A DNA stretch of 64,000 bases from Methanomassiliicoccaceae archaeon (lineage in GTDB: Archaea > Thermoplasmatota > Thermoplasmata > Methanomassiliicoccales > Methanomethylophilaceae). Position 1 is the first letter of the stretch. Each line of letters starts with the position of its first letter. The translations under genes were made by a program, and so were the position numbers. Positions 11,779 through 39,247 of this stretch are shown in pieces. The stretch spans positions 62,001 to 126,000 of the forward strand of contig JAYFOZ010000003.1 of assembly GCA_034928305.1 (NCBI GenBank), written 5' to 3'. A model generated the notes under the pieces. That model saw only the letters and a program-made list of their open reading frames with translations, was not told the DNA's origin and made no database searches.

Positions 11779-12509
11779 CCCTCAAGGGCATTGGATGATA
11801 AAATCGCTTTCGCTTCCTCACTGCCCCTGGCCGCAGCCTTCGAAAACCATCTTTTTGCGTTTCGGACGCTCTTTACCATACCGTCCCCCGACAGTGACAT
11901 CTTACCAAGCTGGCACATTGCTTCCTCTGATAGAAGTTCCGCCGCTTTGATCAATGTTTTCGCGGCCCCTTCCGGGTCCTTAGCCATGCCCCTTCCCTCG
12001 AGTTGCATAAGTCCCAGGCGGTATCCGGCCTTTGAATATTCCTCAGAAAAACAGGCACGGTAAATCTCTGCGGACATTTCATAATCGATATCTGCTCCCC
12101 TTCCGAGCTCGTACATAACCCCCAGCCTATAGTAGGCCGGAATAGAACCGTGTGCGGCCGCCTTTTCGTACCAGAAGCGGGCCTGTTCCCAATCCTGTTC
12201 CGTACCTCGGCCGTCGGAATAAAGATCGGCAAGATTGAACATCGCCCTGGGATACCCTAGCTGAGCAGATTTCTTGTAAAGTTCAAAACCTTTCTCGAAG
12301 TTGCAGGAAAGTCCTTCACCATGGACCCTCATGTAACCAAGGTTGCAGATTGCCTCTGCGTTACCTTGGTCCGCGGCCTCACCGAACCATCTCGCCGCCT
12401 CTCTGCGGTCGCGCACGACACCGTTACCTGTAAAGAAAAGATATCCCAGCGCGGTCTGCGCGTTCTGGTCGCCTGCCCGGGCTGCCTCCAGCTGCTCCTT
12501 GAAACCCAC
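11775..12509 (-). CDS. Sel1-repeat protein (244 aa)
   Basis: The whole protein is made of about six Sel1-like repeats of roughly 36 residues. Examples are ALGYLFFTGNGVVRDRREAARWF, split over the A/L/G positions, and MFNLADLYSDGRGTEQDW. Sel1 repeats form alpha-helical solenoids that bind partner proteins. There is no signal peptide or membrane helix, so it should be cytoplasmic. It follows the next Sel1 gene by four bases and overlaps gcvH by four, so the three genes form one operon. The partner is unknown. Confidence 0.85.
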   Translation of the reverse strand: MGFKEQLEAARAGDQNAQTALGYLFFTGNGVVRDRREAARWFGEAADQGNAEAICNLGYMRVHGEGLSCNFEKGFELYKKSAQLGYPRAMFNLADLYSDGRGTEQDWEQARFWYEKAAAHGSIPAYYRLGVMYELGRGADIDYEMSAEIYRACFSEEYSKAGYRLGLMQLEGRGMAKDPEGAAKTLIKAAELLSEEAMCQLGKMSLSGDGMVKSVRNAKRWFSKAAARGSEEAKAILSSNALEG

Positions 12510-12513
12510 GGCC

Positions 12514-13608: not shown

Positions 13609-13679
13609 GCCCCCGTAAGGTACCCATTGATTTATTTAGTTTTCATCTGAGCCTTTAATTCAGAGGAAAACTGTTGGAA

Positions 13680-21721: not shown

Positions 21722-22684
21722 TCAATCCTTACCGTTACCGTCGATGCAGATGAACTGGGTGTTCTGTGCCCTCCGAAGCTCTTCCAGCAGTTGCTTTGCC
21801 TCCTCGCTACCTTGCTCGGCGGCCTTGGACATGGACTTTAGTCCCCTGTCGGGGTCGCAGTCCGTTCCTGTGCCCTGGATCTCCATCCTGCCTTTAAGGA
21901 ACGATGCGTCGGCATCTCCTTCATCGGACGCTTGGGAATAGAGCTCGTAAGCCTTCTCCAGATTCCTCTGGGTGCCTCTGCCCTCGTAGTGCAGGGTCCC
22001 CAAACTTACTTTCGCAGTGGTAATACCGGCATCGGCTGCCTTGGAATACCATCTGAAAGCCTCATCTTCACCTCCCGGGATCCTGCCTGAAAACGAGAGT
22101 TCCGCCATCTTCATCTGCGCCTCGGGAAGGCCCTCTTCCGCTGAACGTCTGAAAAGCTCGGACGCCTTATCCTGGTCCTTTTCCGTACCGACCCCTTCCT
22201 CATACATGTAGCCGGCCTTGAACATCGACACCACGTCATTGGCCTCTGCCGACCTTAGGAACCATCTGAAGGCTGCGCGCATGTCCCTCTCTGTCCCGTA
22301 GCCGTTGAACAGATACTCGGCTACATAAGCAAAGGCCTCGAGCATCCCTGCCTCGGCGGCCACCAAAAAATGCTTGTAGGACGCCTCGGGGTCCGCTGGA
22401 AGCCCGTAATCGCCCGTGTAGATCATACCCAATCTGAAGCTGGATTCTACGTGCCCCGTTGAAGCCGCCTTTTCATACAGCCCCTTGGCGCGCTCTTGGT
22501 CTTGGGTGGCTCCGTAACCTACCATGAGTATCTCGGCTAGACCGAAGATCCCCTGGGAAAATCCCTCATCGGCGACCGCTGAGAAGATACGGGCCGCCTC
22601 GTCCGGACGTCTCTCGTATCCTCCTGTTCCCGTCATATACATTACAGCTTCGCGGCAAAGCTCCGCTGCTTCTTCGGAATTCAT
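21722..22684 (-). CDS. Sel1-repeat protein (320 aa)
   Basis: About eight Sel1-like repeats make up the protein (for example FRLGMIYTGDYGLPADPEA and MFKAGYMYEEGVGTEKDQD). The C-terminal 25 residues are polar and unrelated to the repeats. There is no signal peptide. It ends directly at the convergent rubredoxin gene and has an AT-rich divergent promoter region (22685-22836) shared with the SMR pair. It is the fifth Sel1 protein in 11 kb, so this genome uses the family heavily. Confidence 0.85.
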   Translation of the reverse strand: MNSEEAAELCREAVMYMTGTGGYERRPDEAARIFSAVADEGFSQGIFGLAEILMVGYGATQDQERAKGLYEKAASTGHVESSFRLGMIYTGDYGLPADPEASYKHFLVAAEAGMLEAFAYVAEYLFNGYGTERDMRAAFRWFLRSAEANDVVSMFKAGYMYEEGVGTEKDQDKASELFRRSAEEGLPEAQMKMAELSFSGRIPGGEDEAFRWYSKAADAGITTAKVSLGTLHYEGRGTQRNLEKAYELYSQASDEGDADASFLKGRMEIQGTGTDCDPDRGLKSMSKAAEQGSEEAKQLLEELRRAQNTQFICIDGNGKD

Positions 22685-23576: not shown

Positions 23577-23588
23577 TTGGGTGACCAT

Positions 23589-23954
23589 ATGGAAAATTAC
23601 GATCGAGATATCTGCGATGTGCACGTGACACATCAGGACGTTGTAGAACTTGTAAGAAAAAGCATACCCAAAGAGGAGGATGTTTTCAGGCTTTCCGAGT
23701 TCTTCAGCCTGTTCGGCGACAGCACCAGGGTCAAGATATTGATGGCGCTGGAAGTGAGCGAGATGTGTGTTTGCGACATCGGCGCATCTCTGATGATGTC
23801 GGATTCTGCAGTCTCCCACCAACTTAAGGCGCTTAAAAGGTCCAGGCTCATCAAATCCCGCAGGGACGGAAAATTCGTATACTACTCGCTTTGCGACGAC
23901 CACGTCAAATCGATAATCGACTTCGCGTCCGAGCATCTGGGGGAGGAGAAATGA
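23589..23954 (+). CDS. ArsR/SmtB-family metal-responsive repressor (CadC-like)
   Basis: This 121-residue winged-helix repressor carries the CVCD cysteine pair in helix 3 (EMCVCDIG), as in CadC, and an N-terminal cysteine (DICDVH). The last helix has the full zinc-site spacing D-x-H-x10-H-x2-E (DDH ... EHLGEE), as in SmtB and CadC. Both metal sites are therefore plausible, for cadmium/lead and zinc. I chose the ATG at 23589 because GGTGA lies just upstream; a TTG at 23577 would add four residues. It starts an operon with the HMA carrier and the P1B-ATPase and is preceded by its likely operator. Confidence 0.9.
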   Translation: MENYDRDICDVHVTHQDVVELVRKSIPKEEDVFRLSEFFSLFGDSTRVKILMALEVSEMCVCDIGASLMMSDSAVSHQLKALKRSRLIKSRRDGKFVYYSLCDDHVKSIIDFASEHLGEEK

Positions 23955-24172
23955 GAGCCGCTTTCGTCATCGAGAACCTTGGGTGCGCGAACTGCGCAGC
24001 CAAGATGGAAAGGAAGATCTCCAAAATACAAGGCGTTAGATCCGCGTCCGTAATATTCATGTCCAAAAAGCTGATCATCGATGCCGACGAAACAGATATC
24101 AGCCGAATAGAGATGGAGGCCGGAATCATAGTCAAAAGTATAGAGCCGGACTCCAGATTGATAAGGGGTTGA
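23951..24172 (+). CDS. Stand-alone heavy-metal-associated (HMA) domain protein
   Basis: This 73-residue protein is a single ferredoxin-like HMA fold with the metal motif GCANC near the N-terminus (LGCANCAAKMERKI). Such proteins are chaperones for soft metals or are the N-terminal domains of P1B-ATPases. Here it overlaps the arsR stop (ATGA) and lies six bases before the ATPase gene, whose product lacks an HMA domain. It most likely supplies metal to that pump. The upstream in-frame ATG at 23891 lies inside arsR and is not used. Confidence 0.87.
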   Translation: MRAAFVIENLGCANCAAKMERKISKIQGVRSASVIFMSKKLIIDADETDISRIEMEAGIIVKSIEPDSRLIRG

Positions 24173-24178
24173 ACCCAC

Positions 24179-26020
24179 TTGCGTCGAAGAACAGCAGAAG
24201 TTCTGATCTCGGGCTTGCTCTTTGCAATCGGTGCCTTGTTGCATTACACCGGTCAGGAGACGGCCTCGATGGCCGTTCTCATAACAGCTTATGCGATTGC
24301 AGGCTATGTTGTGGCCATCTCCGCGGCAAAGAGCCTCCGTTACGGCATGATACTCGACGAGAACTTCCTGACCATCATCGCTTCCGCCGGCGCTTTCATC
24401 ATCGGTGCAAGCGTCGAAGGTGCGGCGGTAATACTATTCTTCTGCGTCGGGGAGCTGTTCGAAGAGGCCGCTGTACAAAAAACAAGAAAGTCCATCTCCG
24501 AACTGGTAGAGATGCAGCCTGTTTCAGTAAGAGTGGTCAGGAACGGTTATGAGCTCGCCGTCAAACCGGAGGACGTCGCTATAGGCGAACATTTCGTAGT
24601 GCTTCCCGGGGAACGTATCCCGATAGACGGAACCATACTGTCCGGCTCTTCGTCTCTGGATACTAAAGCGCTCACCGGCGAGTCGATGCCGAGGGACGTC
24701 GCTCCCGGGGAATCCGCCCTAAGCGGATGCATAAATATGACTGGCACCCTTGTGATAAGGGCGGACAGAGAATACTCTGATTCAGCGGTCGCACGCGTCC
24801 TTGCAATGGTCGAGGAGTCGGGGTCGAGAAAAGCAAAGACAGAGAAGTTCATAACCACTTTTGCAAAGTACTACACGCCCGCTGTCGTCGCTGCCGCAAT
24901 TATAGTTGCGACCGTTCCGACGCTTTTGTTTGGACTACCTTCCGACATATGGGTCTATCGCGCGCTGGTGTTCCTTGTGGTTTCCTGCCCATGCGCCCTT
25001 GTCATATCTGTGCCGCTGACGTTTTTCTGCGGGGTAGGACGTGCCTCAAAATCCGGCATCCTGATCAACGGAGGGGATGTAATGGATAGGCTGGCACTAG
25101 TAGATACAGTCGTGGTGGACAAAACCGGCACCGTTACCAAAGGATCGTTCGACTTCAGCGGCATCCATGCTTACGGAGTCACAGAGGACGACCTGCTGGA
25201 GTATGCCGCGAAATCGGAGTATCACTCGGACCATCCGATATCCGCGGCGATAATAGGCCGCTACGGACGCGTTATCGACCCTGAGGATATCGGAGAATCG
25301 GTGAACATAGCAGGAAAGGGCATAAGGACCGAGGTCAACGGACACACTGTTCACACGGGGAATGCCAGGCTCATGCGGGAAATAGGCATAGAACCGTGCG
25401 GCACACACGATGGCGTTACCAATATACACGTCGCGATCGACAGCACGTACGGCGGCCATATTTCCATATCGGACGAGCCGAAGGACGATTCCGCCGAAGC
25501 CATCCGCGAGATGAGGGAGCTGGGCGTGAAGGACGTGATAATGCTGACCGGCGACAACAGAACATCGGCCAGCCGGGTGGCGGAAATCGTCGGAATAACG
25601 AACGTCCACAGCGAACTGCTTCCGGAGGACAAACTGGACAGGCTTGAAGATTATCTCGGACTCGAAAACAGATCGGGTTCCCTGGCATATGTCGGAGACG
25701 GCATCAACGACGCGCCTTCGATAGCAAGGGCCGATGTCGGAGTGGCAATGGGGGGCATAGGTTCCGACAGCGCAGTAGAGGCAGCGGACGTGGTCATAAT
25801 GAACGATTCCCTCAGGAAGCTGCCGGAGGCCATCAGAATATCAAGGAGGACACGAAAAATCGCATACCAGAACATTGTTTTCTCACTGGGGTTCAAATTT
25901 GCCGCACTGGGACTTGCCACTTTCGGCCTGGCCGGGATGTGGTTTGCAATATTCGCCGACGTTGGGGTTGCAGCGATAGCCATCGTAAACGGTACCAGAG
26001 CTTACGGGAGATTCCTATGA
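24179..26020 (+). CDS. zntA: Zinc/cadmium/lead-exporting P1B-type ATPase (ZntA-like)
   Basis: This 613-residue pump has the intramembrane CPCAL motif, the phosphorylation site DKTGTVTKG, the HP locus in SDHPIS, and GDGINDAP. The last membrane helices contain a lysine in NIVFSLGFKF and D-x-G in FADVGVAA, which are the P1B-2 signature for Zn2+/Cd2+/Pb2+ rather than copper. There is no N-terminal metal-binding domain; the preceding gene encodes one separately. I use the TTG start at 24179, as no ATG fits the N-terminal helix. With the ArsR repressor it forms a metal-efflux operon. Confidence 0.93.
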   Translation: MRRRTAEVLISGLLFAIGALLHYTGQETASMAVLITAYAIAGYVVAISAAKSLRYGMILDENFLTIIASAGAFIIGASVEGAAVILFFCVGELFEEAAVQKTRKSISELVEMQPVSVRVVRNGYELAVKPEDVAIGEHFVVLPGERIPIDGTILSGSSSLDTKALTGESMPRDVAPGESALSGCINMTGTLVIRADREYSDSAVARVLAMVEESGSRKAKTEKFITTFAKYYTPAVVAAAIIVATVPTLLFGLPSDIWVYRALVFLVVSCPCALVISVPLTFFCGVGRASKSGILINGGDVMDRLALVDTVVVDKTGTVTKGSFDFSGIHAYGVTEDDLLEYAAKSEYHSDHPISAAIIGRYGRVIDPEDIGESVNIAGKGIRTEVNGHTVHTGNARLMREIGIEPCGTHDGVTNIHVAIDSTYGGHISISDEPKDDSAEAIREMRELGVKDVIMLTGDNRTSASRVAEIVGITNVHSELLPEDKLDRLEDYLGLENRSGSLAYVGDGINDAPSIARADVGVAMGGIGSDSAVEAADVVIMNDSLRKLPEAIRISRRTRKIAYQNIVFSLGFKFAALGLATFGLAGMWFAIFADVGVAAIAIVNGTRAYGRFL

Positions 26021-26156
26021 TACTGTCCCCTGCGGAATTCGTAATTTGATTTTTCCGGAAATAAAGTGGGGGCCGGCAATAGCCAGTTTACGGATTTCGT
26101 ATTGATTTGCCAAGTATTAAATCGGTCGAGCACATACGCGTGACTGGGATGCATGG

Positions 26157-28187
26157 ATGAAGGTAGGTATTGACCTCGGGACAACCTACTCAACGATAGC
26201 TTATTACGATAAGGACAGCTGCGAGGCTGTCATAATCCCCGACGCACACGGTAACTTACTTACTCCTTCCGTAATCTGTTTCTGCCCTGATGGAACGATT
26301 CACGTCGGTGAGACTGCAAAAAGCTTGCAGTCTCGGGGGGAGGGCATTATTGCAGCCTCGTTCAAACGCGCAATGGGCGACACCCAATATTCTATGACTG
26401 CATACGGCGCAAGGTACTCGGCAGAAGACCTTTCCGCCATGTTGCTGAGATATCTTATTGCCGGCGCCGAGGCGAGGACCGGACATAAAATTGATTCTGC
26501 AGTTATAACGGTACCCGCATACTTCAATGATTTTCAGAGAACCGCCACCATCAGGGCCGGCGAGAAATGCGGGATTGATGTTCTTAAGATCGTCAACGAG
26601 CCTACTGCCGCGGCCGTTTCGTACGGATACAACAACGCAGGCAACAAAACAGTAATGGTATACGACCTCGGAGGAGGCACTTTCGACATAACCGTCGTCC
26701 GCATCGAAAACAGGAACATAAACGTACTTGGCACGGAAGGAAACCACATTCTCGGCGGAAAAGACTGGGACCAGGCGATAATGTCGTATTTCTGCGGAAA
26801 GTTCAATGACGAGTTTAACATCGATCTCAGGGACTGTGAATCTGCAAAGAACAAACTGATAGTGGTCGCCGAGGACCTTAAGAAGGAACTGTCTGAAGCC
26901 GATTGCGTCATAACCCACCTTGAATATGAGGGCGATGCCGCCGATTATACGCTCACCAGGGACCAGTTCAACGATATGACCGAGCCTCTTTTCGATTCGA
27001 CCCTGGAAGTCTGCGAAAGGGTGCTGGCAGATATTAGGTTAGAATGGAAGGATATTGACGAGATCCTCCTCGTCGGGGGTTCTACAAGACTCCCCGGCAT
27101 TCCGGGCCGCCTGGCCAGAATATCCGGGAGGAAGGTGATCAAGCACGCTGACACCGACTTGGCGGTTGCCAAGGGCGCCGCGCTGACCGCATATCTTTTC
27201 GGAATCGAAGGCAGGAAGCCCATGGGCGTGACCGATGTCACTTCCCACAGCCTCGGGGCCCTTTCTGTAAGGGAAGACGGCAAGAAATTCATCAACGAAA
27301 TAATGATAAAACGCAACTCCAGCGTCCCATCGTCGGTTAGGAAGCCCTTCAGGATCGAACCGGGGAACCTGACCGACAGCATCGAGCTCTTCACGCTACA
27401 GGGCGAATCGCGCAATCCGCTGGACTGTGTGATCCTTGCAAGGATGAAGATATCCGGGATAATGAACAACGGAGAGGGCGTTGTCGTCGAGATAGGGTAC
27501 AATTACGACGAGAACGGAGTTGTATGCATATCAGCTTTCCAAAACGGGAGCGAGCTGGCAGTGGAATCCGAAACGCTGCCCGGAGATATATCATGGATGG
27601 GGGGACGTCCTGAAAACAGACCTTCCAACGCCCCGGTCCAGAAGAACATTGTCATTGCGATGGACATTTCACGCAGTATGAAGGACGAGCCGCTGGGAAA
27701 GGCTAAGAAGGCAATGTCCAGATTCATCAGGGAGGTCGCCGATGTAAACACCAAATTCGGATTGATTGTTTTCGGCGACAAGACGATAGTCGTCAGGGAT
27801 CTCACTCTGGACCGCTACGCTATAGCCCGCTCGATAGAGGGCCTGCAATTAAAAATGGCCGGGAGGGGTACCGATGCCTCTCCGTTCAAAGAAGCGCGGA
27901 GGATGCTGATGGGCAAGGCGGGCAACAATATCATAGTGGTCCTTACCGACGGGAAGTGGGGGAACAGAGACATGGCCGTAATTCAGGCCATGGAATGCCG
28001 TATGGACGGGATCACGACCGTGGCTGTCGGTTACGGGGAAGCCGACAGGTCGTTCCTCAGGCAGATCGCAACGGCCGACGAGGATGTGCTATTTACAACG
28101 ATCGATCAGTTGGGAGATACTTTCGGAACTATAGCCACTGCGGTGAGCTCCGGCGGAATAGGGCTGTGCGACATTGAAAAGGGATGA
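26157..28187 (+). CDS. Hsp70-like ATPase with a C-terminal VWA domain
   Basis: Residues 1-350 are an Hsp70 nucleotide-binding domain. Phosphate-1 is GIDLGTTYST (4-13), the catalytic-type lysine is K70, phosphate-2 is DLGGGTFD (170-177), the connecting motif is VNEPTAAAV (146-154), and the adenosine motif is LVGGSTRLP (305-313). Residues 355-480 resemble the beta part of the substrate-binding domain. The helical lid is missing; instead residues about 495-676 form a von Willebrand factor A domain with a complete metal site (DISRS at 503-507, T572, D598). This is not the housekeeping DnaK. It starts an operon; a TATA-like AGTATTAAAT lies about 40 bases upstream, and the stop overlaps the next gene. 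Confidence 0.88.
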   Translation: MKVGIDLGTTYSTIAYYDKDSCEAVIIPDAHGNLLTPSVICFCPDGTIHVGETAKSLQSRGEGIIAASFKRAMGDTQYSMTAYGARYSAEDLSAMLLRYLIAGAEARTGHKIDSAVITVPAYFNDFQRTATIRAGEKCGIDVLKIVNEPTAAAVSYGYNNAGNKTVMVYDLGGGTFDITVVRIENRNINVLGTEGNHILGGKDWDQAIMSYFCGKFNDEFNIDLRDCESAKNKLIVVAEDLKKELSEADCVITHLEYEGDAADYTLTRDQFNDMTEPLFDSTLEVCERVLADIRLEWKDIDEILLVGGSTRLPGIPGRLARISGRKVIKHADTDLAVAKGAALTAYLFGIEGRKPMGVTDVTSHSLGALSVREDGKKFINEIMIKRNSSVPSSVRKPFRIEPGNLTDSIELFTLQGESRNPLDCVILARMKISGIMNNGEGVVVEIGYNYDENGVVCISAFQNGSELAVESETLPGDISWMGGRPENRPSNAPVQKNIVIAMDISRSMKDEPLGKAKKAMSRFIREVADVNTKFGLIVFGDKTIVVRDLTLDRYAIARSIEGLQLKMAGRGTDASPFKEARRMLMGKAGNNIIVVLTDGKWGNRDMAVIQAMECRMDGITTVAVGYGEADRSFLRQIATADEDVLFTTIDQLGDTFGTIATAVSSGGIGLCDIEKG

Positions 28188-31100
28188 CCATGGCTAAGAT
28201 AGAGAACTACTGCATGCTGCTGGGACTCAACCCTCTGAAAGAATATTCCTATTCGCCCGAGTCTATTTCAGTGGCAATAGACGAAAAAGAGAGGAAATGG
28301 ACTGAGGAGAGCAGGGACCGTCAGAACGATGTGAGCCGCAGGTTCAGGTCCCAGAGCTACCTAGACATCGTACCTGAGATCCGTCGCGTGATGGATGACC
28401 CGAAACTTAGGGAAAACGAGTTCGAAGAGGCCCTCAAACTACTGACCTCGAAGGCATCGAGACTCAGAAGGGAGTCCGTGACGCTTCATGACGGGACCCC
28501 TGTGCGTGTTTCCGGTGCTGCTGAATCAATTGTCAAAAAACTTAGATGGGACGGCATAGGTACGGAAGACCTGGTCAAACTGTCCGGAGTTAAGGAGTAC
28601 GATCCATCTTATGTCGCGTCGGATACCGTCCTGACAGCTTACCAGGCGCTAAAGGTCGTGGATGCGTTCACTCCGTCGGAGATGCTGAACGACCTTATCT
28701 CCAACGAAGAGCTCGAGATTGAAACAGATGAGCTGAATGACGGCAGTTCTCCGGAAGATGTCCGGAAAACGTTCGAGCAATGTGAAAAAAGGGTCAACAA
28801 CGTGCGCCCCGAGACCCTTCCCAAGCAGGACTCGTATATACAGGCCATGAGGGCTGTGAAGCTGGCCCTGAAATCTGACGGGCTGCTGTGCGAACTTACT
28901 GAATTCGGCAGGTGCCAAAGGGCCTTGGCCCCTATATTCGAAATTATCGAAGATGAATACACGCATCCGCAGAACCGGGCATATGTCGACGAGCTGATGT
29001 CGATCTATCTCTCCGATCCCGGCCTCGATGTCGACCTGGCTGTCCGCGTCATGGAGGATTACTGCATCAAGAAGAAGTTCATCATCAATTTCTCGGAAAC
29101 GGACAGTCGCATGATCAGATGTCCGGATTGCAAGGCGTTCGTCGAAACAGGGAGCGATGTCATGTGCTGTTCGATCTGCGGCCATGCAATAAAGGCAGTA
29201 TGTCCCAAATGCAACACTAAACAGTCATCTTCCAACCGCGCATGCGTGAAATGCGGGTTCGACATGAAGGCTAGCTGGGAAAAAGCCATTGAGATGGAGA
29301 ATGCAGTCTCCGAACTCGCTTCTGCCGGGCTGATTTCCGCCGCGGAGAAGATATTGGACGGGCTCAGAGAGGAATATTCCACATACCCACCGATAGACAG
29401 CCTTGAAAAGAAGATCGATATCGCAAGGGGCCATTTACTTTCTGGAAGAAAAAAGATAGAACAATCCTATAAACTAAAAAGATACAGCAAAGCTGTGGAC
29501 CTCACGCGAGAAATGCTTGTCCATTACAAGCGTTTCATCGAAGAGGACACATCGACAGAAATTCTCTACAAAGAATCGGAAAAACGCCTTTACGAGGCGG
29601 ACAGGCTGTTGGAGAAAGCAGGAAGGGCCAGCGATGCCAGGGCGCGTATGGACCTTTATATTATGGCAGCCGAAAGGTGTCCGGACCATGAGATGATCAG
29701 GTCCGTGCTGGGAAATAATGCCCCGGACCCTCCGGCGGACGCCACGGCAAAGGTCAGCGACGGCAAGGTCCTGATAAGATATGCCATACCGGAAGAAAGA
29801 AGCGGCATTACTTTCTGCATCTACAGGGAGGAATTTTCCGTACCGGAGGTCGATGAGGGAATAATACCGCTGGCGGAAGTCAACAACGGTTATTATATGG
29901 ACGAGGCCGCCGAGCCGGGAGTGGATTATTATTATATCGTAATGTCAAAACGTTGGGGCGTACTCTCAGAGGAGGGTGCCTATTGCGGCCCCGTTTCAGT
30001 GTTCGCCGAGGCTCTGAACGTCGGCATCGACCCGCTAGAAGACGGACTGCGTTTATATTTCGAGAAACCGAAGAACTGCACCAGAGTAAGAATATGGAGG
30101 AAGAGCGGTTCGGACGGCGAGGAAGTGGAGATCGAAGGTGATGGCCCGGCCATAGAAGACAGAGGACTCTGCGGCGGATGTACATACTATTACCTTTTTG
30201 TCGCTGAATACGAATCACCGGACGGACGTGTGAACAGATCTTCCGGGTCCGTTTATTCAGGAACTACGGCTGTCTTCCCTGACCCGGTCAGGGATCTGAA
30301 GGTCTATTGGAACAAATCTGACGGAACGTTCACCGCCGAATGGACCGGTGACGAAAACGTTGTGCTCTATTCTTCGCCCAAGAGCATCAGGATGTACGGG
30401 CTGCTGATCAAGATAGAAGATATAGATTCCTGGATGACACCGATAGAGCCTATTGAGAAGAAGAGGGGCAAAATGCGCTTTTCGCTACCGGACGGAGCAG
30501 TACAGTACATTTACCCGATGATACCGGTCGGCAGATATGCTGTCAGGGGCCTCGAGGTGCTGGTGGCGGACCTGAAACCGTTCAGGGACATGAACAAAGA
30601 TATCATGGGTGGCGACTGTATTCTCACGATGTCATGGCCGCAAGGCGCCGAATCCGCCATCCTCGTGATCACAGATTCGGGAAACCCTGCCTCCGGACCG
30701 AATGATCTGGACGGGGAGAGGATGACCGTCTCTGCCGAAGCGTATTCTAAGGACAGGATGATCAAGGTCTCTGTAGGCAACCGGCCGCGCAGGACCGTCA
30801 CCATATTTGCAGTCTACGACGCAGATGGGAAGAAGATGACCTCCCGCGGGATGAGCTTCGACATAGTATCAGGAACGTACAGAGCAGTAAGGTACAGCGC
30901 AGATGCGGACCCTTCCAAGAATGGCAAAATAAGAGTGGCCATAGAGGCGGACAGCGATGTGGAGTTTCTTCCTCCGATCATCGCGGTATGCACGGGCGAG
31001 GGCATACCGCTCAGACGGAACGACGGAGAGGTCATCTGGAGATCGGAGGTGCCGATGAGGCTCAGCAAAGGCCGCAGCGTCTTTAATATCAATACGGAGC

Positions 31101-31195
31101 AGGGCACGGACATCAGACACATGAGGATATTCTTCGAAAAAGACGAGGACTACAGCAGCTTCAGGTTCGTTCATCCGCTTTACAGGGGGAATTGA
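28184..31195 (+). CDS. Large zinc-ribbon/FN3-like protein with possible degenerate J-domain
   Basis: This 1003-residue protein overlaps the Hsp70-VWA gene by four bases. Its first 85 residues (YCMLLGLNPL ... DDPKLRENEFEEAL) have the spacing and helix pattern of a J-domain but lack HPD; this is my inference. Two zinc ribbons follow: C313xxC316 with C329xxC332, and C340xxC343 with C354xxC357. Residues 365-510 are helical, perhaps coiled coil or TPR-like. From about 515 onward the protein is beta-rich, with repeated fibronectin-III-like units (YYYIVMSKRWG, YYYLFVAEYES). No signal peptide or membrane helix is visible. It may be an adaptor bringing clients or partners to the Hsp70-like proteins. 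A second ATG at 28190 is also possible. Confidence 0.75.
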   Translation: MTMAKIENYCMLLGLNPLKEYSYSPESISVAIDEKERKWTEESRDRQNDVSRRFRSQSYLDIVPEIRRVMDDPKLRENEFEEALKLLTSKASRLRRESVTLHDGTPVRVSGAAESIVKKLRWDGIGTEDLVKLSGVKEYDPSYVASDTVLTAYQALKVVDAFTPSEMLNDLISNEELEIETDELNDGSSPEDVRKTFEQCEKRVNNVRPETLPKQDSYIQAMRAVKLALKSDGLLCELTEFGRCQRALAPIFEIIEDEYTHPQNRAYVDELMSIYLSDPGLDVDLAVRVMEDYCIKKKFIINFSETDSRMIRCPDCKAFVETGSDVMCCSICGHAIKAVCPKCNTKQSSSNRACVKCGFDMKASWEKAIEMENAVSELASAGLISAAEKILDGLREEYSTYPPIDSLEKKIDIARGHLLSGRKKIEQSYKLKRYSKAVDLTREMLVHYKRFIEEDTSTEILYKESEKRLYEADRLLEKAGRASDARARMDLYIMAAERCPDHEMIRSVLGNNAPDPPADATAKVSDGKVLIRYAIPEERSGITFCIYREEFSVPEVDEGIIPLAEVNNGYYMDEAAEPGVDYYYIVMSKRWGVLSEEGAYCGPVSVFAEALNVGIDPLEDGLRLYFEKPKNCTRVRIWRKSGSDGEEVEIEGDGPAIEDRGLCGGCTYYYLFVAEYESPDGRVNRSSGSVYSGTTAVFPDPVRDLKVYWNKSDGTFTAEWTGDENVVLYSSPKSIRMYGLLIKIEDIDSWMTPIEPIEKKRGKMRFSLPDGAVQYIYPMIPVGRYAVRGLEVLVADLKPFRDMNKDIMGGDCILTMSWPQGAESAILVITDSGNPASGPNDLDGERMTVSAEAYSKDRMIKVSVGNRPRRTVTIFAVYDADGKKMTSRGMSFDIVSGTYRAVRYSADADPSKNGKIRVAIEADSDVEFLPPIIAVCTGEGIPLRRNDGEVIWRSEVPMRLSKGRSVFNINTEQGTDIRHMRIFFEKDEDYSSFRFVHPLYRGN

Positions 31196-31196
31196 T

Positions 31197-32444
31197 TTGC
31201 AGAAAAAGAATGAGAACACGTACATTTGCCCTTTCTGCTTCAACACCGTAGACCTTGGAAACATCCACTACCAATGCACGAACCAATCGTGCACAAGGCT
31301 GTTCGTCAAGGCGATAGATGCAGGAAAAGTGGAGAACGGAAAAATATACAGGTCAAAATCCGAAGACGAGGAGATCGATGTCGAGAACAGCACTTTCCTG
31401 GAAAGAGATCCCGACGGAAAAGATTCTGTTCGGACAAAACAGCACATAATTCGAAACTCCACAGGGATATGCGACATATGCCGCAGGCCGGTCCATAAGA
31501 GATTGTGCCCCGTTTGCCACAGCTGCATCCCTCAGGAGGCAGAGGGCGGCAAAAATATCATATTCATTATAATCGGTGCAAGAGGCGCGGGGAAGAGCCA
31601 CTATATTTCGGTGCTTATCAACCACCTAAAAAATTCGTTCGCCCCTGAATTCAATGCAATAGTGACCCCCGCATCCGACCGCACGACCTTGAAGTACCGC
31701 GAATACTATTACAGACGCCTCTACGAGGACGGGAGAAAATTGCCCCCTACCAGAACGTACGAGAACATCAAGGATTTCAAGGAGCCCATGATATATTATA
31801 TAAGGTTCCCAGACAAAGAGGGATCCAACAGTGCCACGCTTGCATTTTTTGACACTGCGGGAGAGGGACCGGACGATAAGTTGCCGAGCATCGGTTTCAA
31901 TTCATTTCTCTCCAGCGCCTCCGGGATCGTCTATCTGGTCGACCCTTTGCAGATACCTTACGTAAACGAAAGGATAAGAGCGGAAAACATACCTAAGCCG
32001 TCCCATGATGTGAGCAAAGCCATATCGGCCGTGAGTGAAATGATACGGTCCAGCATGGGGATTCCATCCAACAAGAAAATACCCATTCCTTTGGCTGTTG
32101 TCTTGACCAAGTGCGATATTCTGCTCAAGGCCCCCGAAAATGAGGAAGAAGAGAAAGTACTGCTTGACATCAGTTCCTCGGTCCGCATGCCAAGGGAGCG
32201 CGGAAAGATAGACTACGATAATTTCATGCAGATAGACGCAGAGCTGAACGAGTATCTGCGTCGCGCCATATCAGGCGATTTCATAGACACGGTGGATGGT
32301 TTCGAAAAGCATTGCTTCTTCGCGGTGTCGGCATTGGGCTGCAACCCCGAAGGCAGCATCCTGAACAGAGGAATATCGCCTTTGAGGGTCGAAGACCCGC
32401 TGATATGGATGCTGGGGTGCTACGAATCCGAAGCCCCGTACTAA
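31197..32444 (+). CDS. Zinc-ribbon P-loop GTPase
   Basis: Two small zinc motifs come first (C11xxC14 ... C27, C32; and C92xxC95 ... C104xxC107). The GTPase core then has G1 GARGAGKS (127-134), G3 DTAGEG (219-224), G4 TKCD (304-307) and G5 VSALG (377-381). All loops look functional. The core resembles the TRAFAC-type 'double-GTPase' proteins reported in bacterial conflict and signalling loci, but I cannot confirm the family. The TTG start at 31197 follows the upstream stop by one base and has GGGGGA before it. The stop is TAA, rare in this window. It belongs to the operon of the Hsp70-VWA gene. Confidence 0.8.
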   Translation: MQKKNENTYICPFCFNTVDLGNIHYQCTNQSCTRLFVKAIDAGKVENGKIYRSKSEDEEIDVENSTFLERDPDGKDSVRTKQHIIRNSTGICDICRRPVHKRLCPVCHSCIPQEAEGGKNIIFIIIGARGAGKSHYISVLINHLKNSFAPEFNAIVTPASDRTTLKYREYYYRRLYEDGRKLPPTRTYENIKDFKEPMIYYIRFPDKEGSNSATLAFFDTAGEGPDDKLPSIGFNSFLSSASGIVYLVDPLQIPYVNERIRAENIPKPSHDVSKAISAVSEMIRSSMGIPSNKKIPIPLAVVLTKCDILLKAPENEEEEKVLLDISSSVRMPRERGKIDYDNFMQIDAELNEYLRRAISGDFIDTVDGFEKHCFFAVSALGCNPEGSILNRGISPLRVEDPLIWMLGCYESEAPY

Positions 32445-32520
32445 AAAAATTCACATACTCAGCAAAGAAAAATTAATACCAATGGACATACAGATATCAA
32501 CGGAAAGGAAGGGATGAAAA

Positions 32521-34059
32521 ATGAAAGAAGACTATTGCATAGGTATCGACCTAGGTACCACTTACTCATGCCTCGCATACATAGACGGAGAAGGAAACCC
32601 GGTCGTTGAAAAGAACTTCGAGCAGGAAGATACTACACCCTCCGTCGTACTTTTCAACGAGAACGGCGAGATAATCGTCGGCTCTCCCGCAAAGGACATG
32701 GCCGTCATGTATCCGGCCAACAGGACGATCGCATCTGTGAAAAGACAGATGGGCACAGACTATAAAGTGAACATCGACGGCGACGTGTACACTCCGGTAA
32801 CTCTTTCGGCGGCCATCCTAAAAAAGATGATCAACGACTTCAACGAAGCTCATGGATGCGATGTGAAGAAGGCCGTCATAACCTGCCCCGCATATTTCGG
32901 TCAGAATGAAAGGGACTCCACCAAGTACGCAGGGAAGATCGCAGGGCTTGAGGACGTTACAATAATCAACGAGCCTACCGCCGCCGCCATATCCTTCGGC
33001 TACGGAGGGGACGGAAGCAAGAAAAGGGTCATCGTATACGACCTGGGAGGGGGGACGTTCGACGTTACCATACTCGAAATCGAGGGCAACTCCTTCACTG
33101 CCGTCGCAACGGACGGAGAGCGCCTGCTGGGAGGCAAGGACTGGGACAAGGCGCTGGCCTCATTGATAAAAAACAAAGTGTCACAGTCTTCCGGAATTTC
33201 CATAGAGGAAATCGAAGAGGACAAAGATGCGGCAGTGATGCTGGACCTCGACGCCGAATCCATCAAGAAGAGATTGACCACCGCCGAGTCGACAAGGGGA
33301 ACACTTATAATAGGGGGCATAAAGACAGTATATTCCGTCACAAGAGGGGAATTCGAAAGCATCACCGCCCCGCTCCTGAACAGGACGCTTGAAATTATTG
33401 ACAGTGTGCTCGCATCCAAAGCGTTCACGTTGGACGATATAGATGACATAATCCTTGTAGGCGGTTCTTCCAGGATGCCCCAGATAAAGAACGGCATCTC
33501 GGCGAAATATCCGAGTGCCAAGGTCAGGCTGTTCGACCCCGACAGGTCCATAGCCAAGGGCGCGGCTATTTTCGCAAGGTCCAAGGAGCTTAACTACTCG
33601 GACAAGGTCGATGCTCAGAAACTCACGGTGAAGAATGTTTTGAGCAAAACGTTCGGCATCAGAGTCGACTTCAACGGCAAAGAAATGATTTCGAACATCA
33701 TCTACAGGAACGAGACCCTGCCGATAGAGAGTATAAAACTTTACTATCCGATCGAAGACGGGCAACCTTCCGTGCTGGTAGAGATATTCGAAAATTCCAC
33801 GCTGCGCTCTGACAATGTTCTCAGGACCGAGCTTATCGACGGCAATTCCGTCGGAGAGTTCGAAATGGCTCTGCCTGATGGCATAACTATCAACACGCCT
33901 ATCAAGGTCACCTTCAGGGCTGCCGACGATGGTACGATAACAGCTGAGGTAGAATGCATGAGCCAGGTCAAAAAATATAACTTGAAGAGCGACCTGAGCA
34001 TCACCGAAAGCGAAGTGGAAACGTCACAGGGGCTAATTGAAAGGGTCACAAAGGTATGA
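32521..34059 (+). CDS. Second Hsp70-like ATPase, without lid domain
   Basis: This 512-residue protein has a complete Hsp70 ATPase domain: GIDLGTTYSC, the lysine in SVKRQMG, YDLGGGTFDVT, NEPTAAAIS and LVGGSSRMP. Residues about 375-490 are beta-rich and match a substrate-binding beta-domain in position. The protein stops there, so the alpha-helical lid and the usual EEVD-like tail are absent. It differs from the first Hsp70-like protein in lacking VWA. A 76-base gap with a TATA-like AAAAATTAATA separates it from the GTPase gene, so it may have its own promoter. AAGGAAGGG upstream supports the ATG at 32521. It ends directly against the convergent cfbB gene. Confidence 0.87.
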   Translation: MKEDYCIGIDLGTTYSCLAYIDGEGNPVVEKNFEQEDTTPSVVLFNENGEIIVGSPAKDMAVMYPANRTIASVKRQMGTDYKVNIDGDVYTPVTLSAAILKKMINDFNEAHGCDVKKAVITCPAYFGQNERDSTKYAGKIAGLEDVTIINEPTAAAISFGYGGDGSKKRVIVYDLGGGTFDVTILEIEGNSFTAVATDGERLLGGKDWDKALASLIKNKVSQSSGISIEEIEEDKDAAVMLDLDAESIKKRLTTAESTRGTLIIGGIKTVYSVTRGEFESITAPLLNRTLEIIDSVLASKAFTLDDIDDIILVGGSSRMPQIKNGISAKYPSAKVRLFDPDRSIAKGAAIFARSKELNYSDKVDAQKLTVKNVLSKTFGIRVDFNGKEMISNIIYRNETLPIESIKLYYPIEDGQPSVLVEIFENSTLRSDNVLRTELIDGNSVGEFEMALPDGITINTPIKVTFRAADDGTITAEVECMSQVKKYNLKSDLSITESEVETSQGLIERVTKV

Positions 34060-35391
34060 TCACACGCACCTGGAGATGAAACCGGAGGCCCAGTCTCCGG
34101 TGGACAGTGCATGCTGATGCATGTAGGTTCCCAATGTGCTTTTGCGGACGAGCCCGTCCATTCCATCCGCTATGCCTGCTCCGCGTGATAGGCTGTAACC
34201 GAGCTTCGCCTCATGCTCCAAGAAAACGTCAGAATAATGATACTCGTGGGCCCGCACTTCTGATGTGAAGAGAGGATTCGCCGGCGTCGCCTTGGCCATT
34301 ACGTACGTAGGGCCGTGCCTGATTCCGGTCATTTCTGCCCTGGCATCGAATATGCCTGCCATCTTGTGCAGGCGACCATTGGAATCCTTGAGGGTCCGGC
34401 ACATCGAGAGCAATCCTCCGCATTCCCCCAAGATGGGCTTCCCTTCTTCGGAAGCGTTCCTGATCCCTTCCAAGAAATCGGTGTTGGAGGAGATGTCTTC
34501 GGCATGAAGCTCGGGATATCCCCCTCCCATATAGTAGATATCCGCATCCGGAAGGGATTCCCCCTCGGTGGGCGCGAACTCCTTTATCCTGACGCCGGAG
34601 GCCTCAAGGCATTCTATGTTCTCCCTATAATAAAAACAGAACGAATCATCAATAGGAATTGCTGCGCTCAGCCCTGTCTCCCTGCGGACATAGGGGCATT
34701 CCTGCGGAAGCTCTGTATCGGAAGATTCGGCGATTTCCATCAATCTGTCCAGGTCCACGCCCTCGGCCATCTCATAAAAGGGGGCGATATCGGGCCTCTC
34801 CTTCGAATTCGGAGTTACAAGGCCCAAATATCTTTCTTTCGTGGGCCTCTCGGACATTTTGCGCACCTTTCCAATGACCTCTTGTTCGCAATATCTGCCC
34901 ATGACCTCGTCGAGCTTCGTCTCGTGCTGCGAACCGGAAATGTTGTTGAGTATCAGGCCCTTGATATTAACTTCCGGGTCGAAGGCCGCAAAACCATTTA
35001 CAATTGCGGCAACGCTCCTGTTCAGAGATCTGACATCGATAGTCAAGACCACGGGAAACCCCAGGGCCTTGGCCAGCCTGGCCGTGGAGCCTACGTCCGA
35101 TTCTGCCGAAAAACCCTCGTACAATCCCCTGACCCCTTCGACGATGCAGATATCCGCATCCTTGGAAGCATATCCGACTATGTTCCGGATCGTGTCATCG
35201 TCCATCATAAAAGAGTCGAGATTTCTGGATCTTCTGCCGGAAGCCAATGTGTGGTACATCGGATCGATAAAGTCCGGACCGGCCTTGAAGGCCTGAACTC
35301 TATAGTCCTTCGAAAGCCTGGATAAAATACCAGTGGTTATCGAAGTCTTTCCGACACCACTTCCTGTACCGGCTATCACCACGCCTTTCAT
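34060..35391 (-). CDS. cfbB: Ni-sirohydrochlorin a,c-diamide synthase
   Basis: This 443-residue CobB/CbiA-family enzyme has an N-terminal dethiobiotin-synthetase-like ATPase (AGTGSGVGKTSITTG) and a C-terminal class I glutamine amidotransferase (catalytic cysteine in ILGECGGLLS). It amidates the a and c side chains of nickel-sirohydrochlorin in F430 synthesis. The corrin homologue CbiA lies elsewhere (52641), and location inside the cfb operon decides the assignment. It is the last gene of cfbC-A-E-D-B, directly after cfbD. Confidence 0.9.
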   Translation of the reverse strand: MKGVVIAGTGSGVGKTSITTGILSRLSKDYRVQAFKAGPDFIDPMYHTLASGRRSRNLDSFMMDDDTIRNIVGYASKDADICIVEGVRGLYEGFSAESDVGSTARLAKALGFPVVLTIDVRSLNRSVAAIVNGFAAFDPEVNIKGLILNNISGSQHETKLDEVMGRYCEQEVIGKVRKMSERPTKERYLGLVTPNSKERPDIAPFYEMAEGVDLDRLMEIAESSDTELPQECPYVRRETGLSAAIPIDDSFCFYYRENIECLEASGVRIKEFAPTEGESLPDADIYYMGGGYPELHAEDISSNTDFLEGIRNASEEGKPILGECGGLLSMCRTLKDSNGRLHKMAGIFDARAEMTGIRHGPTYVMAKATPANPLFTSEVRAHEYHYSDVFLEHEAKLGYSLSRGAGIADGMDGLVRKSTLGTYMHQHALSTGDWASGFISRCV

Positions 35392-36468
35392 TTACTCCCC
35401 CCTTATGAGCTCCCTCAATGTCTCGGCGGTCTCCATCGTTATTATCCTGTCGACCCCCATCACCATGGAATGCGATGATATCTCTCCGACAGAATTGTGA
35501 AATCCGGCATTTATGTAATTGGAGAGTTGCCTGGGCTGATCTGTGATCAGTATATCGTCCTCTCCGATACCAGGATATGCATGGCATATTCCTACGATGA
35601 CCGTAAGGTCGGGGCCGAACCCGTTCACTTCCTCTTTCATAAGTCCGCCGATGACCGCATATTCATCGAGCCCGCCCACCACAGAATCTATAGAAACATT
35701 ATTTTCTTTAAGCTGGGACATTATATCCTCAGAGTATTTGCGAACCCTCGGCAGACCTTTTTCGACATCTGTGTTGGACACAAAGAATGTACTGCCCCCC
35801 AGCGTCCTGCGTGCTTCATCCATGGCAAGAAAAATGTCTGAAAAACGGTATGCCAGCTCCTTCTTGGCATTCATTACGACCGCTACCTTTCCCCCGGAAG
35901 AAAGAACCTCACATATCTTCCTGCATACGCTGAGCTTGGTGGCACCGGAGGAGGGCTTCAGATAGACCTTACTGGCGAGACCTCTGTTCCTCTCCATCTC
36001 GGTCGCCGCTTTCATAAGTCCTATCTGACGCTGGGTTTCCTCAGCAGATATTATTCCGGCATCGTGACCGGCCTCCAATGCCTTGATCGCTCCTGCGGTA
36101 TTGTCCATCATGCATCCGTGTGATTCCACCGGAAAAACAATACTTTCGATCCCGGCCCTTTTAATCGAAGATGCCATATCTTCTCCGATTATCATACTGG
36201 CACATGTGCCAACGACTGCGATGTAATGTGGATGGAACATCTCATACGCGGCCCTCAGCGTATCTACCAGCTGCTCCGAACCTCCAAAAATAAGGTCTGT
36301 TTCCGATAATGCGGAGGTAATCACTCTGACGCCGGCCTGCTCCAGTGACCCTGAAGCCATAAATCCACAACCTGACGGCCCATGAAGCAGGATAACATCG
36401 ACGTCCATGTCCCTGAGAGTGTACATTGCCGCAACTATCGGATTGGGACGCGGGTGTATTATCTTCAA
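35392..36468 (-). CDS. cfbD: Ni-sirohydrochlorin a,c-diamide reductive cyclase, NifD-like subunit
   Basis: The 358-residue product is related to nitrogenase NifD. Cysteine-bearing blocks that could hold the iron-sulfur cluster are GPSGCGFM, VVGTCASMI and ESHGCMMDN. With CfbC it carries out the six-electron reduction and lactam ring formation that turn nickel-sirohydrochlorin diamide into 15,17-seco-F430 acid. It overlaps cfbE by four bases and abuts cfbB. The stop codon is TAA. Presence of this gene is strong evidence of methanogenesis or a related Mcr-based metabolism. Confidence 0.93.
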   Translation of the reverse strand: MKIIHPRPNPIVAAMYTLRDMDVDVILLHGPSGCGFMASGSLEQAGVRVITSALSETDLIFGGSEQLVDTLRAAYEMFHPHYIAVVGTCASMIIGEDMASSIKRAGIESIVFPVESHGCMMDNTAGAIKALEAGHDAGIISAEETQRQIGLMKAATEMERNRGLASKVYLKPSSGATKLSVCRKICEVLSSGGKVAVVMNAKKELAYRFSDIFLAMDEARRTLGGSTFFVSNTDVEKGLPRVRKYSEDIMSQLKENNVSIDSVVGGLDEYAVIGGLMKEEVNGFGPDLTVIVGICHAYPGIGEDDILITDQPRQLSNYINAGFHNSVGEISSHSMVMGVDRIITMETAETLRELIRGE

Positions 36469-37679
36469 GTGTAACCTTCCTTTACAAAAATAATCACAGG
36501 TCCGGTTGATTCGGGAATTGCCGGCATTGTTCCAGATCCGTCGGTTATGAACATAATGACGTTGTACTCAGCAGCTACTTTTTTTATTGCGTCTACGTCT
36601 ATCTTGCAACATACTTTTTTGTTTACCGGATTTAAAACGGCAACGGCACAATTCAGCGAATTCATCTCTTTCAACGTTGAAAAAGTACGTTCCACGGAAT
36701 CTGCGGATATACCGGGATTACGTTCAGTTACGGTCCACCTTCCATCAGACAAGGATATTTCTCCTCTACCCGGCACGCCGATAAAGGATGACAGCCCGTC
36801 TTTTACATATGATTCTGGAATTCCCATCCTCTCACATACCTCAAGCGCCATTTCCATGGCATCGATGTATTCGAGTGCCAGATAACTTTTTTTTAAATGA
36901 ACTTCAAATCCTTTACCGTAATCGACCTGTACCTTGACGATCTCTCCGAGCTTCGGTTTCCCAAGGACCTTGACTCTTCCGCCGTATCCGATAACTCTCC
37001 CGATCCCATAACCTCTCCAGAATTCGATCTCATCTTTCGGAACGATATTTGTTTCCTTGTTCAATATCGACATCTTGCCTTCGGACGCATTCCTCGTTCC
37101 GGCCGCTATCGGATAATCTTCTATCAGGTTTGTGATACAGGATATGTCGGCCTTCCCGGACCCGCCTAAAGAAACTTCGCATATTACGATATCATAATCG
37201 CCGTCCGGCAAAGTTAGCATCGACGGCGGAGCTATACTGATCTTTTCTTCTACCTCGAGTATGCCATCGGCCCATCTGCCTCTGCCCCTCGATGTCTGAA
37301 CAAGAACCTTTCTTCCGGCCGCCGTGAGGACGTGAGCCAGAAGACAACAGGAGCTTGTCTTTCCTTTAACACCTGTGACCTCTATCCTAAACCTATGGTC
37401 ATCGATCAGTTCGCCGACAGACTGACTGAAAAATATTCTTTTCCTGAATGTCACTCCTTTGAGGAAACTGTCGGAACAGTGTATCGGCATCAGTACCGTA
37501 TCATACTCTCCCTCGGGGACTTCCGTGGATACGATATAGCCTTTCCTCATCAGGCGGTTTATCTCGTCTGTCGTAGTAACCCTATAGACATCGACGCATG
37601 TCACGTCGTCTCCCTTTTTTGGGTATTTATCGGCGATGATGCCACCGCCGTGAACCGTATCCAATATCAATATCTTCAT
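36465..37679 (-). CDS. cfbE: Coenzyme F430 synthetase (Mur ligase-like)
   Basis: This 404-residue Mur ligase-family protein has the ATP loop GVKGKTSS and the central and C-terminal ligase domains. It performs the last step of F430 synthesis, forming the cyclohexanone ring from the 17-seco acid at the expense of ATP. Its start overlaps the end of cfbA and its end overlaps cfbD, each by four bases, so all are translated from one message. Length is ordinary for the family. Confidence 0.92.
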   Translation of the reverse strand: MKILILDTVHGGGIIADKYPKKGDDVTCVDVYRVTTTDEINRLMRKGYIVSTEVPEGEYDTVLMPIHCSDSFLKGVTFRKRIFFSQSVGELIDDHRFRIEVTGVKGKTSSCCLLAHVLTAAGRKVLVQTSRGRGRWADGILEVEEKISIAPPSMLTLPDGDYDIVICEVSLGGSGKADISCITNLIEDYPIAAGTRNASEGKMSILNKETNIVPKDEIEFWRGYGIGRVIGYGGRVKVLGKPKLGEIVKVQVDYGKGFEVHLKKSYLALEYIDAMEMALEVCERMGIPESYVKDGLSSFIGVPGRGEISLSDGRWTVTERNPGISADSVERTFSTLKEMNSLNCAVAVLNPVNKKVCCKIDVDAIKKVAAEYNVIMFITDGSGTMPAIPESTGPVIIFVKEGYT

Positions 37680-38458
37680 ATTCCGTATTTTTCCAGTTTC
37701 TTTACGAGCACTTCTACAAGGCGGGGGTCATCCCCAACAGGCATGGCATAATAGATGTTGACCTCTCGGCCGTACAGGTCGCTGACGCCGCCGTAGCTGT
37801 TCATCGGGATTCCCAATTTTTCAGGTATTTCCTCGGCAAGATGCGCCCCCGAGGCTATAAAAAGCGGAAGTACCGCAATATCCTGTGCTCCAGACCCTAC
37901 TGCGACGGACATCGCTGCTTCGATAGACGGGTCGTTGAATTCGTTGAATCCATAATATACATTTTCGTAGCCTCTTTCGGTCAGTCTCTCGGCATTGGCT
38001 TTAACCACCTCCCTGTTGTACTGAAGCCTGGAGCCGTGACCGATCACGACGATGGAACATTCTTTTTCCCGGCAAAGGTCACTGATTCTCTCTTCTAAAA
38101 TATCTGTCAGATTAGGGTCGTCGCCGAACGGCTGTTCTAAGTGAACTGTCACTTTCTTGCCTGCGATAATCGTTTTTCCGCCGGACGAACCCTCCGGTAT
38201 ATTCAGCTTCCTGGGTATGTCCCTTGTTATGTGTAGTCCGGAGGCTATGAAAAAAGGGATCGCGATGATCTCCTCTATCCCGGAGCCTACCATTTCTTCG
38301 GCTACCGCATCTACCAATGGTGCAGTGGTTTCGTTATAAGCGGTCCATACAGGTATGCCTGTTCGTTCCTTCAGCGCGTTGGCCTGGGCTTCGATCGCCT
38401 CCCTGTTGTGGTTCAGCCTCGATCCGTGACCTATGAACAATATCCCTTTTTTCATCAA
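37676..38458 (-). CDS. cfbA: Sirohydrochlorin nickel/cobalt chelatase, tandem two-domain form
   Basis: CfbA inserts Ni2+ (or Co2+) into sirohydrochlorin. Most archaeal versions are about 130-145 residues and act as homodimers. Here the 260-residue protein is a direct tandem repeat with an exact 130-residue period: GHGSRL at 10-15 and 140-145, IASG-x-H at 71-76 and 201-206. Both halves therefore keep both metal-binding histidines (H11/H76 and H141/H206). It is the only sirohydrochlorin chelatase in the window and could serve both F430 and cobalamin. It lies six bases after cfbC. Confidence 0.92.
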   Translation of the reverse strand: MMKKGILFIGHGSRLNHNREAIEAQANALKERTGIPVWTAYNETTAPLVDAVAEEMVGSGIEEIIAIPFFIASGLHITRDIPRKLNIPEGSSGGKTIIAGKKVTVHLEQPFGDDPNLTDILEERISDLCREKECSIVVIGHGSRLQYNREVVKANAERLTERGYENVYYGFNEFNDPSIEAAMSVAVGSGAQDIAVLPLFIASGAHLAEEIPEKLGIPMNSYGGVSDLYGREVNIYYAMPVGDDPRLVEVLVKKLEKYGI

Positions 38459-38464
38459 TACCCC

Positions 38465-39247
38465 TCATTTCTTTTTTTCTAATTTCAATCCGCCCTCAGA
38501 ATCGTCCGAACGGCGAAATATCTCATTTGCAAGTCTTCTGTAATTTTCAGCCATATCGGAGTCCGGGGCATTCCTTATGACCGTGCGTCCGACGGCCTCG
38601 CCTTTCTGTACTTCCCGGTCCCTCGGCAGACGGTATATGACATCTGTACCCATCTCATGGGCGGCCTTGTCGATTATTTCGTTTTCACGCTCGATTCCGC
38701 GCGAATTTTGTATGAGACCAGAGAATTCGGCATACCCGTCATCGGCAAATCCGTTCACCGCCTGACGTATATTGTCTGCCGCGTAGAGCGACATCATCTC
38801 TCCCGAGGTCACTACGAATACGTTTCTTGAGTATCCATTGCGGATGGGCATTGCGAATCCCCCGCAAACAACATCCCCCAAAACATCATAGACTACTATG
38901 TCAGGCCTGTAATTCCCAATCATATCCAGAAGTTCCAGCTGGTTGAACGCTGCAATGATCCCTCGTCCGGCGCACCCCATTCCTGGCCTGGGACCTCCGC
39001 ATTCAACGCAGAATACACCGCGCCCGGTGTCATGTACCGAGTCGGAAAGTTTCATGTTCCCGTCCCTTATCTGATCCAATACTGTTGCGGGCGAATGTCC
39101 GCCCATCAGTAATTTGGTGGAATCCGCCTTCGGATCGCAACCGATCTGAATGACCCTATGCCCCATCTCGGCAAAGGCCTCGCTGACGTTGGAAGACACG
39201 GTAGACTTGCCTATTCCGCCCTTTCCGTATATAGCAATTCTGCGCAA
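38465..39247 (-). CDS. cfbC: Ni-sirohydrochlorin a,c-diamide reductase, NifH-like subunit
   Basis: This 260-residue NifH homologue has the P-loop [14 protein letters not shown] and the two cysteines that bridge the shared [4Fe-4S] cluster in the dimer (GMGCAGRG and VVCGGFAMP). It hydrolyses ATP and passes electrons to CfbD. No other nif genes are present, so it is not a nitrogenase reductase. It is the first gene of the F430 operon. The 80-base leader contains the palindrome ATGGAT-N5-ATCCAT, shared with the cobalamin and tetrapyrrole operons. Confidence 0.94.

Follow-up and report, generated by a model that had tools for sequence, protein, structure and literature searches.

The window analysed here, a stretch of 64,000 nucleotides from a Methanomassiliicoccaceae archaeon, holds four neighbouring genes that encode two Hsp70-like proteins, a large protein with zinc ribbons and FN3 units (referred to below as the scaffold) and a GTPase. 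Do these genes specify the parts of a single machine, is that machine new, and what might it do? A first-pass annotation of the sequence had proposed one machine that senses or handles proteins, with a composition that was possibly undescribed.

Composition of the locus

All four reading frames are intact on the plus strand (Table 1), and the coordinates, overlaps and gaps reported in the first-pass annotation were confirmed: genes 1 and 2 overlap by four bases, genes 2 and 3 are separated by a single base and genes 3 and 4 by 76 bases. The TTG start of the GTPase gene is supported by the ATG found at the equivalent position in most congeners. The domain calls, namely lidless Hsp70s, a VWA metal site, zinc ribbons with FN3 units and a GTPase, were likewise borne out by Pfam, by alignments and by AlphaFold2 models compared through Foldseek.

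Table 1. Features of the four-gene locus and its surroundings, numbered from the first base of the window.
Feature	Position	Strand	Length and start	Description
Sel1-repeat gene	21722..22684	-		Pfam Sel1; candidate associated component; divergent from operon
Two operator-like repeats (putative)	26031-26043, 26089-26101	no strand		5' of operon; like TACGRATTTCGTA; conserved in congeners
Gene 1, Hsp70-VWA	26157..28187	+	676 aa	Pfam HSP70 1.4e-105, VWA 4e-17
Gene 2, scaffold	28184..31195	+	1003 aa	J-like (borderline) N-terminus, helical region, double zinc ribbon, TPR-like helices, FN3 array
Gene 3, GTPase	31197..32444	+	415 aa, TTG start	DO-GTPase-like TRAFAC GTPase, two N-terminal zinc ribbons
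Gap between genes 3 and 4	32445..32520	+		GrpE gene sits here in sister genera
Gene 4, second lidless Hsp70	32521..34059	+	512 aa	Pfam HSP70 3.5e-97, profile 2-502 of 599

The Pfam HSP70 matches of genes 1 and 4 end at profile positions 489 and 502 of 599, short of the lid region, and when both proteins are aligned with DnaK of the same organism the nucleotide-binding motifs and SBD-beta are intact and the lid is missing in each. The VWA domain of gene 1 begins at about residue 497, at the position of the missing lid, and has an intact MIDAS motif (D503ISRS, then GRGTD and LTDG, supplying DISRS, T and D). Neither protein is DnaK by the equivalog test, in which they score 339.8 and 319.9 bits where 648 is required, and the genome carries normal dnaK, grpE and dnaJ genes grouped together elsewhere, away from the locus.

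The AlphaFold2 model of the scaffold (pLDDT 82.6) has a helical N-terminus, two ribbons, TPR-like helices and beta-sandwiches, the last confirmed as an FN3 array by a Foldseek match to fibronectin FN7-10 (E 1.5e-11). Pfam finds the double zinc ribbon of the window protein below threshold, and its eight cysteines (313-357) are invariant among relatives and also between archaea and bacteria. When a profile built from the first 80 residues of archaeal and bacterial scaffolds was searched against 177,635 PDB sequences, J-domains were the best five (best E 0.0016), and HHalign aligned this region to a set of J-domains, one of them taken from the same genome, with an E-value of 1.6e-5. Pfam gives no DnaJ match for the scaffold N-terminus, and the HPD tripeptide between helices II and III by which J-domain proteins are recognised is absent, being replaced by QND in most archaeal proteins of the window's locus type (type A) and by HPS, HPT or HPG in some bacteria. 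The N-terminus thus appears J-like at the borderline of detection, with a degenerate HPD, and the replacement of this motif makes classical ATPase stimulation by the scaffold doubtful.

Pfam DO-GTPase2 (PF19993) matches the window GTPase below threshold (E 1.6e-5) and its sister-genus counterparts over the cut-off (6e-11 to 1.6e-7). The P-loop, DTAG, TKxD and SAL motifs and eight N-terminal cysteines are invariant among relatives; E223, which accompanies DTAG, is nearly so, and the class description, in the sections available, names a conserved Walker B Glu without giving its exact position. The structural model has low confidence (pLDDT 56), and its Foldseek matches are GTPases.

Relationship to GAP1-N2 GTPase-centric systems

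No named system emerged when the window proteins were searched one by one against PADLOC, NCBIfam and the PDB. The set as a whole nevertheless corresponds to the second theme of the GAP1-N2 GTPase-centric systems, predicted computationally by Kaur et al. (2020; PMC7159879), so that the composition can no longer be called undescribed. As described in the available sections of that survey, the second theme combines HSP70 and GrpE with an FN3 protein that carries a DnaJ or TPR fusion, and a subset has a second HSP70 lacking the peptide-binding domain; the GTPase of the class usually bears two zinc ribbons, and the systems are present in a few archaea. In the literature searched, this survey was the one account of Hsp70-type DO-GTPase systems and there was no biochemistry for any member. 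Since the class exists as a prediction only, the proposal of one machine that senses or handles proteins stays inferential.

Bacterial homologues of all four proteins lie in GAP1-N2 operons, with the genes GrpE, Hsp70, Hsp70-VWA, scaffold, DO-GTPase, GAP1 and second DO-GTPase. The succession Hsp70-VWA, scaffold, DO-GTPase and then a GAP1-type gene was found in Desulfobacterales, Azospirillum, Aminicenantes, Alkalihalobacterium, Lachnospiraceae and Gardnerella, a small sample that consists of the loci retrieved with archaeal-derived patterns. In five of these loci the Pfam match to GAP1-N2 is far over the cut-off (down to 1e-39), the gene of Lachnospiraceae being judged from its start alone as the contig end interrupts it. 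Wherever the flank was sufficient, GrpE, a second Hsp70 and a second GTPase were present too.

Several features of the window locus agree with the second theme as set out in the sections cited: its GTPase is DO-type 2 with two N-terminal zinc ribbons, its scaffold unites FN3 units with borderline J-like and TPR-like parts, an Hsp70 is accompanied by a second truncated Hsp70 (in the window both are truncated, with SBD-beta kept), GrpE is found in sister archaeal genera, and the bacterial homologues sit in operons of this kind. In contrast to the theme so described, the window locus lacks GAP1, a second GTPase and a variable effector; its gene order differs, a dedicated GrpE has been lost from its genus, and its position is stable rather than mobile with variable effectors. 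The Hsp70-VWA fusion is unmentioned in those sections. We consider it close to certain that the locus is homologous to the published class, and it would best be seen as an archaeal derivative, without GAP1, of the Hsp70/GrpE theme in bacterial GAP1-N2 DO-GTPase systems. We use derivative rather than member because GAP1 is a defining part of the class.

Two better-known kinds of machine resemble the locus in part. Like the DnaK-DnaJ-GrpE machine, it combines Hsp70 nucleotide-binding and SBD-beta domains, a J-like domain and, in sister genera, GrpE; unlike it, the locus has no lids, a VWA domain in place of one of them, a degenerate HPD and a GTPase linked through the genes. With MoxR-vWA pairs (RavA-ViaA, midasin) it shares the pairing of an NTPase with a metal-site VWA domain thought to bind partners, but the motors are an Hsp70 and a TRAFAC GTPase instead of a MoxR AAA+ protein, and are not homologous.

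Distribution and gene order in archaea

In ten relatives the locus is colinear, with the same order and every member of the set that their contigs cover. Across about 45 Methanomethylophilaceae loci outside the window's genus, judged as far as each contig extends, the genes always run Hsp70-VWA, scaffold, GTPase, GrpE, Hsp70. The fifth gene scored over the Pfam cut-off as GrpE in three of four sister-genus proteins tested; GrpE is missing from the locus solely in the window's genus, where the genome studied has the housekeeping GrpE only. An order-wide search found the GTPase in 67 of 147 genomes (5 of 30 genera), and in the phylum as a whole a single family accounts for all scaffold genes (20 of 293 genomes, 5 of 138 genera). 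Weak order-level matches to the scaffold beyond the confirmed set (E 1e-7 to 5e-4) cover the zinc-ribbon or FN3 region only and were rejected as homologues. Named matches include Candidatus Methanomethylophilaceae and Candidatus Methanoplasma, many of them from animal-gut, rumen or termite samples.

No GAP1-N2 is found in the genome that holds the window, even at E<=1, and type A archaeal loci lack both GAP1 and the second GTPase. Seven of the 147 genomes of the order have GAP1-N2 over the cut-off. In the five of them that were retrieved, the gene is part of an additional, distinct locus (type B; loci L143-L147, genus code g4) composed of GTPase, GAP1, Hsp70-VWA and scaffold, with a GrpE match alongside and an Hsp70 match in four of the five. 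The GTPase, Hsp70-VWA and scaffold of type B are homologous to those of the window's locus type, and the two types share an archaeal clade in the Hsp70 tree, but type B has its own GAP1-N2 and another gene order. At least three type B genomes also keep a GAP1-less locus, and the two loci in one genome make a natural comparison pair.

In a tree of Hsp70 nucleotide-binding domains, a quick tree with long branches and a single DnaK as root, the two Hsp70s form two clades, each with bacteria and archaea, and archaeal types A and B group together (support 99-100). Since both clades unite bacteria and archaea, the Hsp70 pair probably moved together, and the tree suggests that archaeal lineage A has probably lost GAP1.

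The expectation of the first-pass annotation that the genes form one conserved unit was well founded: they occur together in every archaeal locus examined, within contig reach, and the same set is linked, not apart, in Methanomethylophilaceae and in several bacterial phyla. Its inventory needs qualification; the four genes stand, whereas the missing GAP1, second GTPase and GrpE and the linked Sel1 gene had been overlooked. All four genes have dN/dS values of 0.05-0.10 (0.075 for the adjoining cfbB), which indicates strong purifying selection on each. Linkage by chance was rejected because the genes are colinear in ten relatives and show these low dN/dS values, and they are linked in bacteria besides. 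We also give very little credence to the view that the genes are mere neighbours without shared function, held together by the general synteny of small related genomes. The relatives do come from a single family and have further gene order in common, Sel1-ArsR for instance; the same set is, however, linked in several bacterial phyla and in the rearranged type B locus, and the cfb neighbours are not conserved beyond the genus.

Two related genomes have an in-frame TAG at the same position of the scaffold gene (L148:5453-8425 in G096; L150:4006-6042 onward in G109), in the context ESS-A/S-TAG-E-M/V-YNA, and the homologous frame runs on past it. As the order is pyrrolysine-using, this TAG may be a pyrrolysine codon or be subject to amber read-through.

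Proposed mechanism and role

The reading that we favour, held with moderate confidence when taken as a whole, is that the locus encodes a GTPase-switched, lidless-Hsp70 protein-handling complex, a GAP1-less derivative domesticated for a constant role in the cell. The four proteins would form one cytosolic complex, their mutual binding being deduced from gene order. The FN3 array of the scaffold would hold a client or partner, and its J-like and TPR-like parts would dock both Hsp70s; docking in place of classical ATPase stimulation is proposed for the J-like part because its HPD is degenerate. Without lids, the Hsp70s would bind partners reversibly and not trap extended peptides, and the VWA domain in the lid's place could use its metal site to grip an acidic side chain. 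The DO-GTPase would act as a switch that permits assembly or release. GrpE may reset the Hsp70s in sister genera, with the housekeeping GrpE or spontaneous exchange serving in the window's genus. The role would most likely be constant protein handling, in assembly or quality control, and not rapidly diversifying defence.

That the locus is instead still a conflict system, antiviral or inter-microbial, strikes us as rather unlikely. The GTPase and Hsp70s would then detect or assemble on invader proteins and bring about arrest via an effector that is unlinked or has escaped recognition, for which the Sel1-repeat protein is a possibility. Kaur et al. (2020; PMC7159879), in the sections available, read the class as conflict systems with Hsp70-like multimeric effectors and proposed FN3 arrays as invader sensors, and the locus is patchily present across genera of the family. 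Against this, the dN/dS values reveal no diversifying part at gene level; no variable effector gene adjoins the operon, and gene content and order are fixed in the roughly 45 loci. No copy of the locus was found on viral contigs, plasmids gave two distant Rhodococcus matches and no close copy, and in PADLOC-DB 2.0 three of the proteins had no match and the GTPase weak P-loop matches only, none of them convincing. The low dN/dS, with which immunity would be compatible too, would together with the absence of mobility and of an effector favour a constant role in the archaeal lineage.

A protein-handling complex of constant role also admits a more specific history, which we put forward tentatively: a predicted bacterial conflict system may have been captured by gut archaea, lost GAP1 and any effectors, and become domesticated as a GTPase-gated lidless-Hsp70 machine with VWA as surrogate lid and a Sel1-repeat partner. 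The lineage offers a minimal natural version, with four genes, no GAP1 and no dedicated GrpE, under strong selection, and the survival of this version means that the core of the machine can be defined without sensor and effectors. Should the loss of GAP1 be possible with the Hsp70, GTPase and scaffold core retained, both the notion of GAP1 as constant coordinator and the purely conflict view of these systems need revision. A VWA domain at the lid position of an Hsp70 is a directly testable mechanism.

Neighbouring genes and regulatory elements

Directly 3' of the operon lies a convergent coenzyme F430-type cluster (cfb-like B, D, E, A and C; 34060-39247). This bears on a further reading, to us quite improbable, in which the locus would be devoted to the assembly of a single large metalloenzyme or surface complex in these methanogens, comparable to MoxR-vWA pairs such as RavA-ViaA, and not a general quality-control device. 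A VWA domain with intact MIDAS beside NTPases, the limitation to one archaeal family within the phylum and the adjoining cofactor cluster would all suit it; yet the cfb-like genes are linked to the operon in the window's genus only, bacteria that are not methanogens, Gardnerella and Azospirillum among them, have homologues, and no client emerged from the analysis.

In 26 of 29 genomes (four genera) the best relative of the Sel1-repeat gene lies no more than 12 kb from the operon, with different contigs in the other three; it directly adjoins the operon in several loci and is reversed in orientation in three. Neither the type B loci nor the bacterial ones showed it. Sel1 genes abound in these archaea, and its link to the operon as a possible extra component of the system is for that reason suggestive only.

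The operon is preceded by two repeats that may act as operators, and a conserved TATA-like stretch (about 26112-26122) lies 3' of both. A genome-wide search found one further perfect site (C1:2716 of the same genome), between an apt-like gene and a gene cluster that includes a zinc-ribbon protein, and the location of this sole other site means that a heat-shock regulon cannot be argued. Rfam gave no match between 21 and 40 kb of the window. The 76-base gap has a similar length in five congeners, with an AT-rich TATA-like stretch (about 32468-32480) invariant in the alignment, suggestive of a separate promoter for the second Hsp70 gene.

The window has an ArsR-type regulator (23577-23954), which may act on the operon or on the metal-pump gene only, and a metal P-type ATPase (together 23577-26020) between its Sel1 gene and the operon, an arrangement shared by some genera; in other genera only ArsR lies directly next to the operon. 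Three further Sel1-repeat genes are clustered on the minus strand at 11775-15131.
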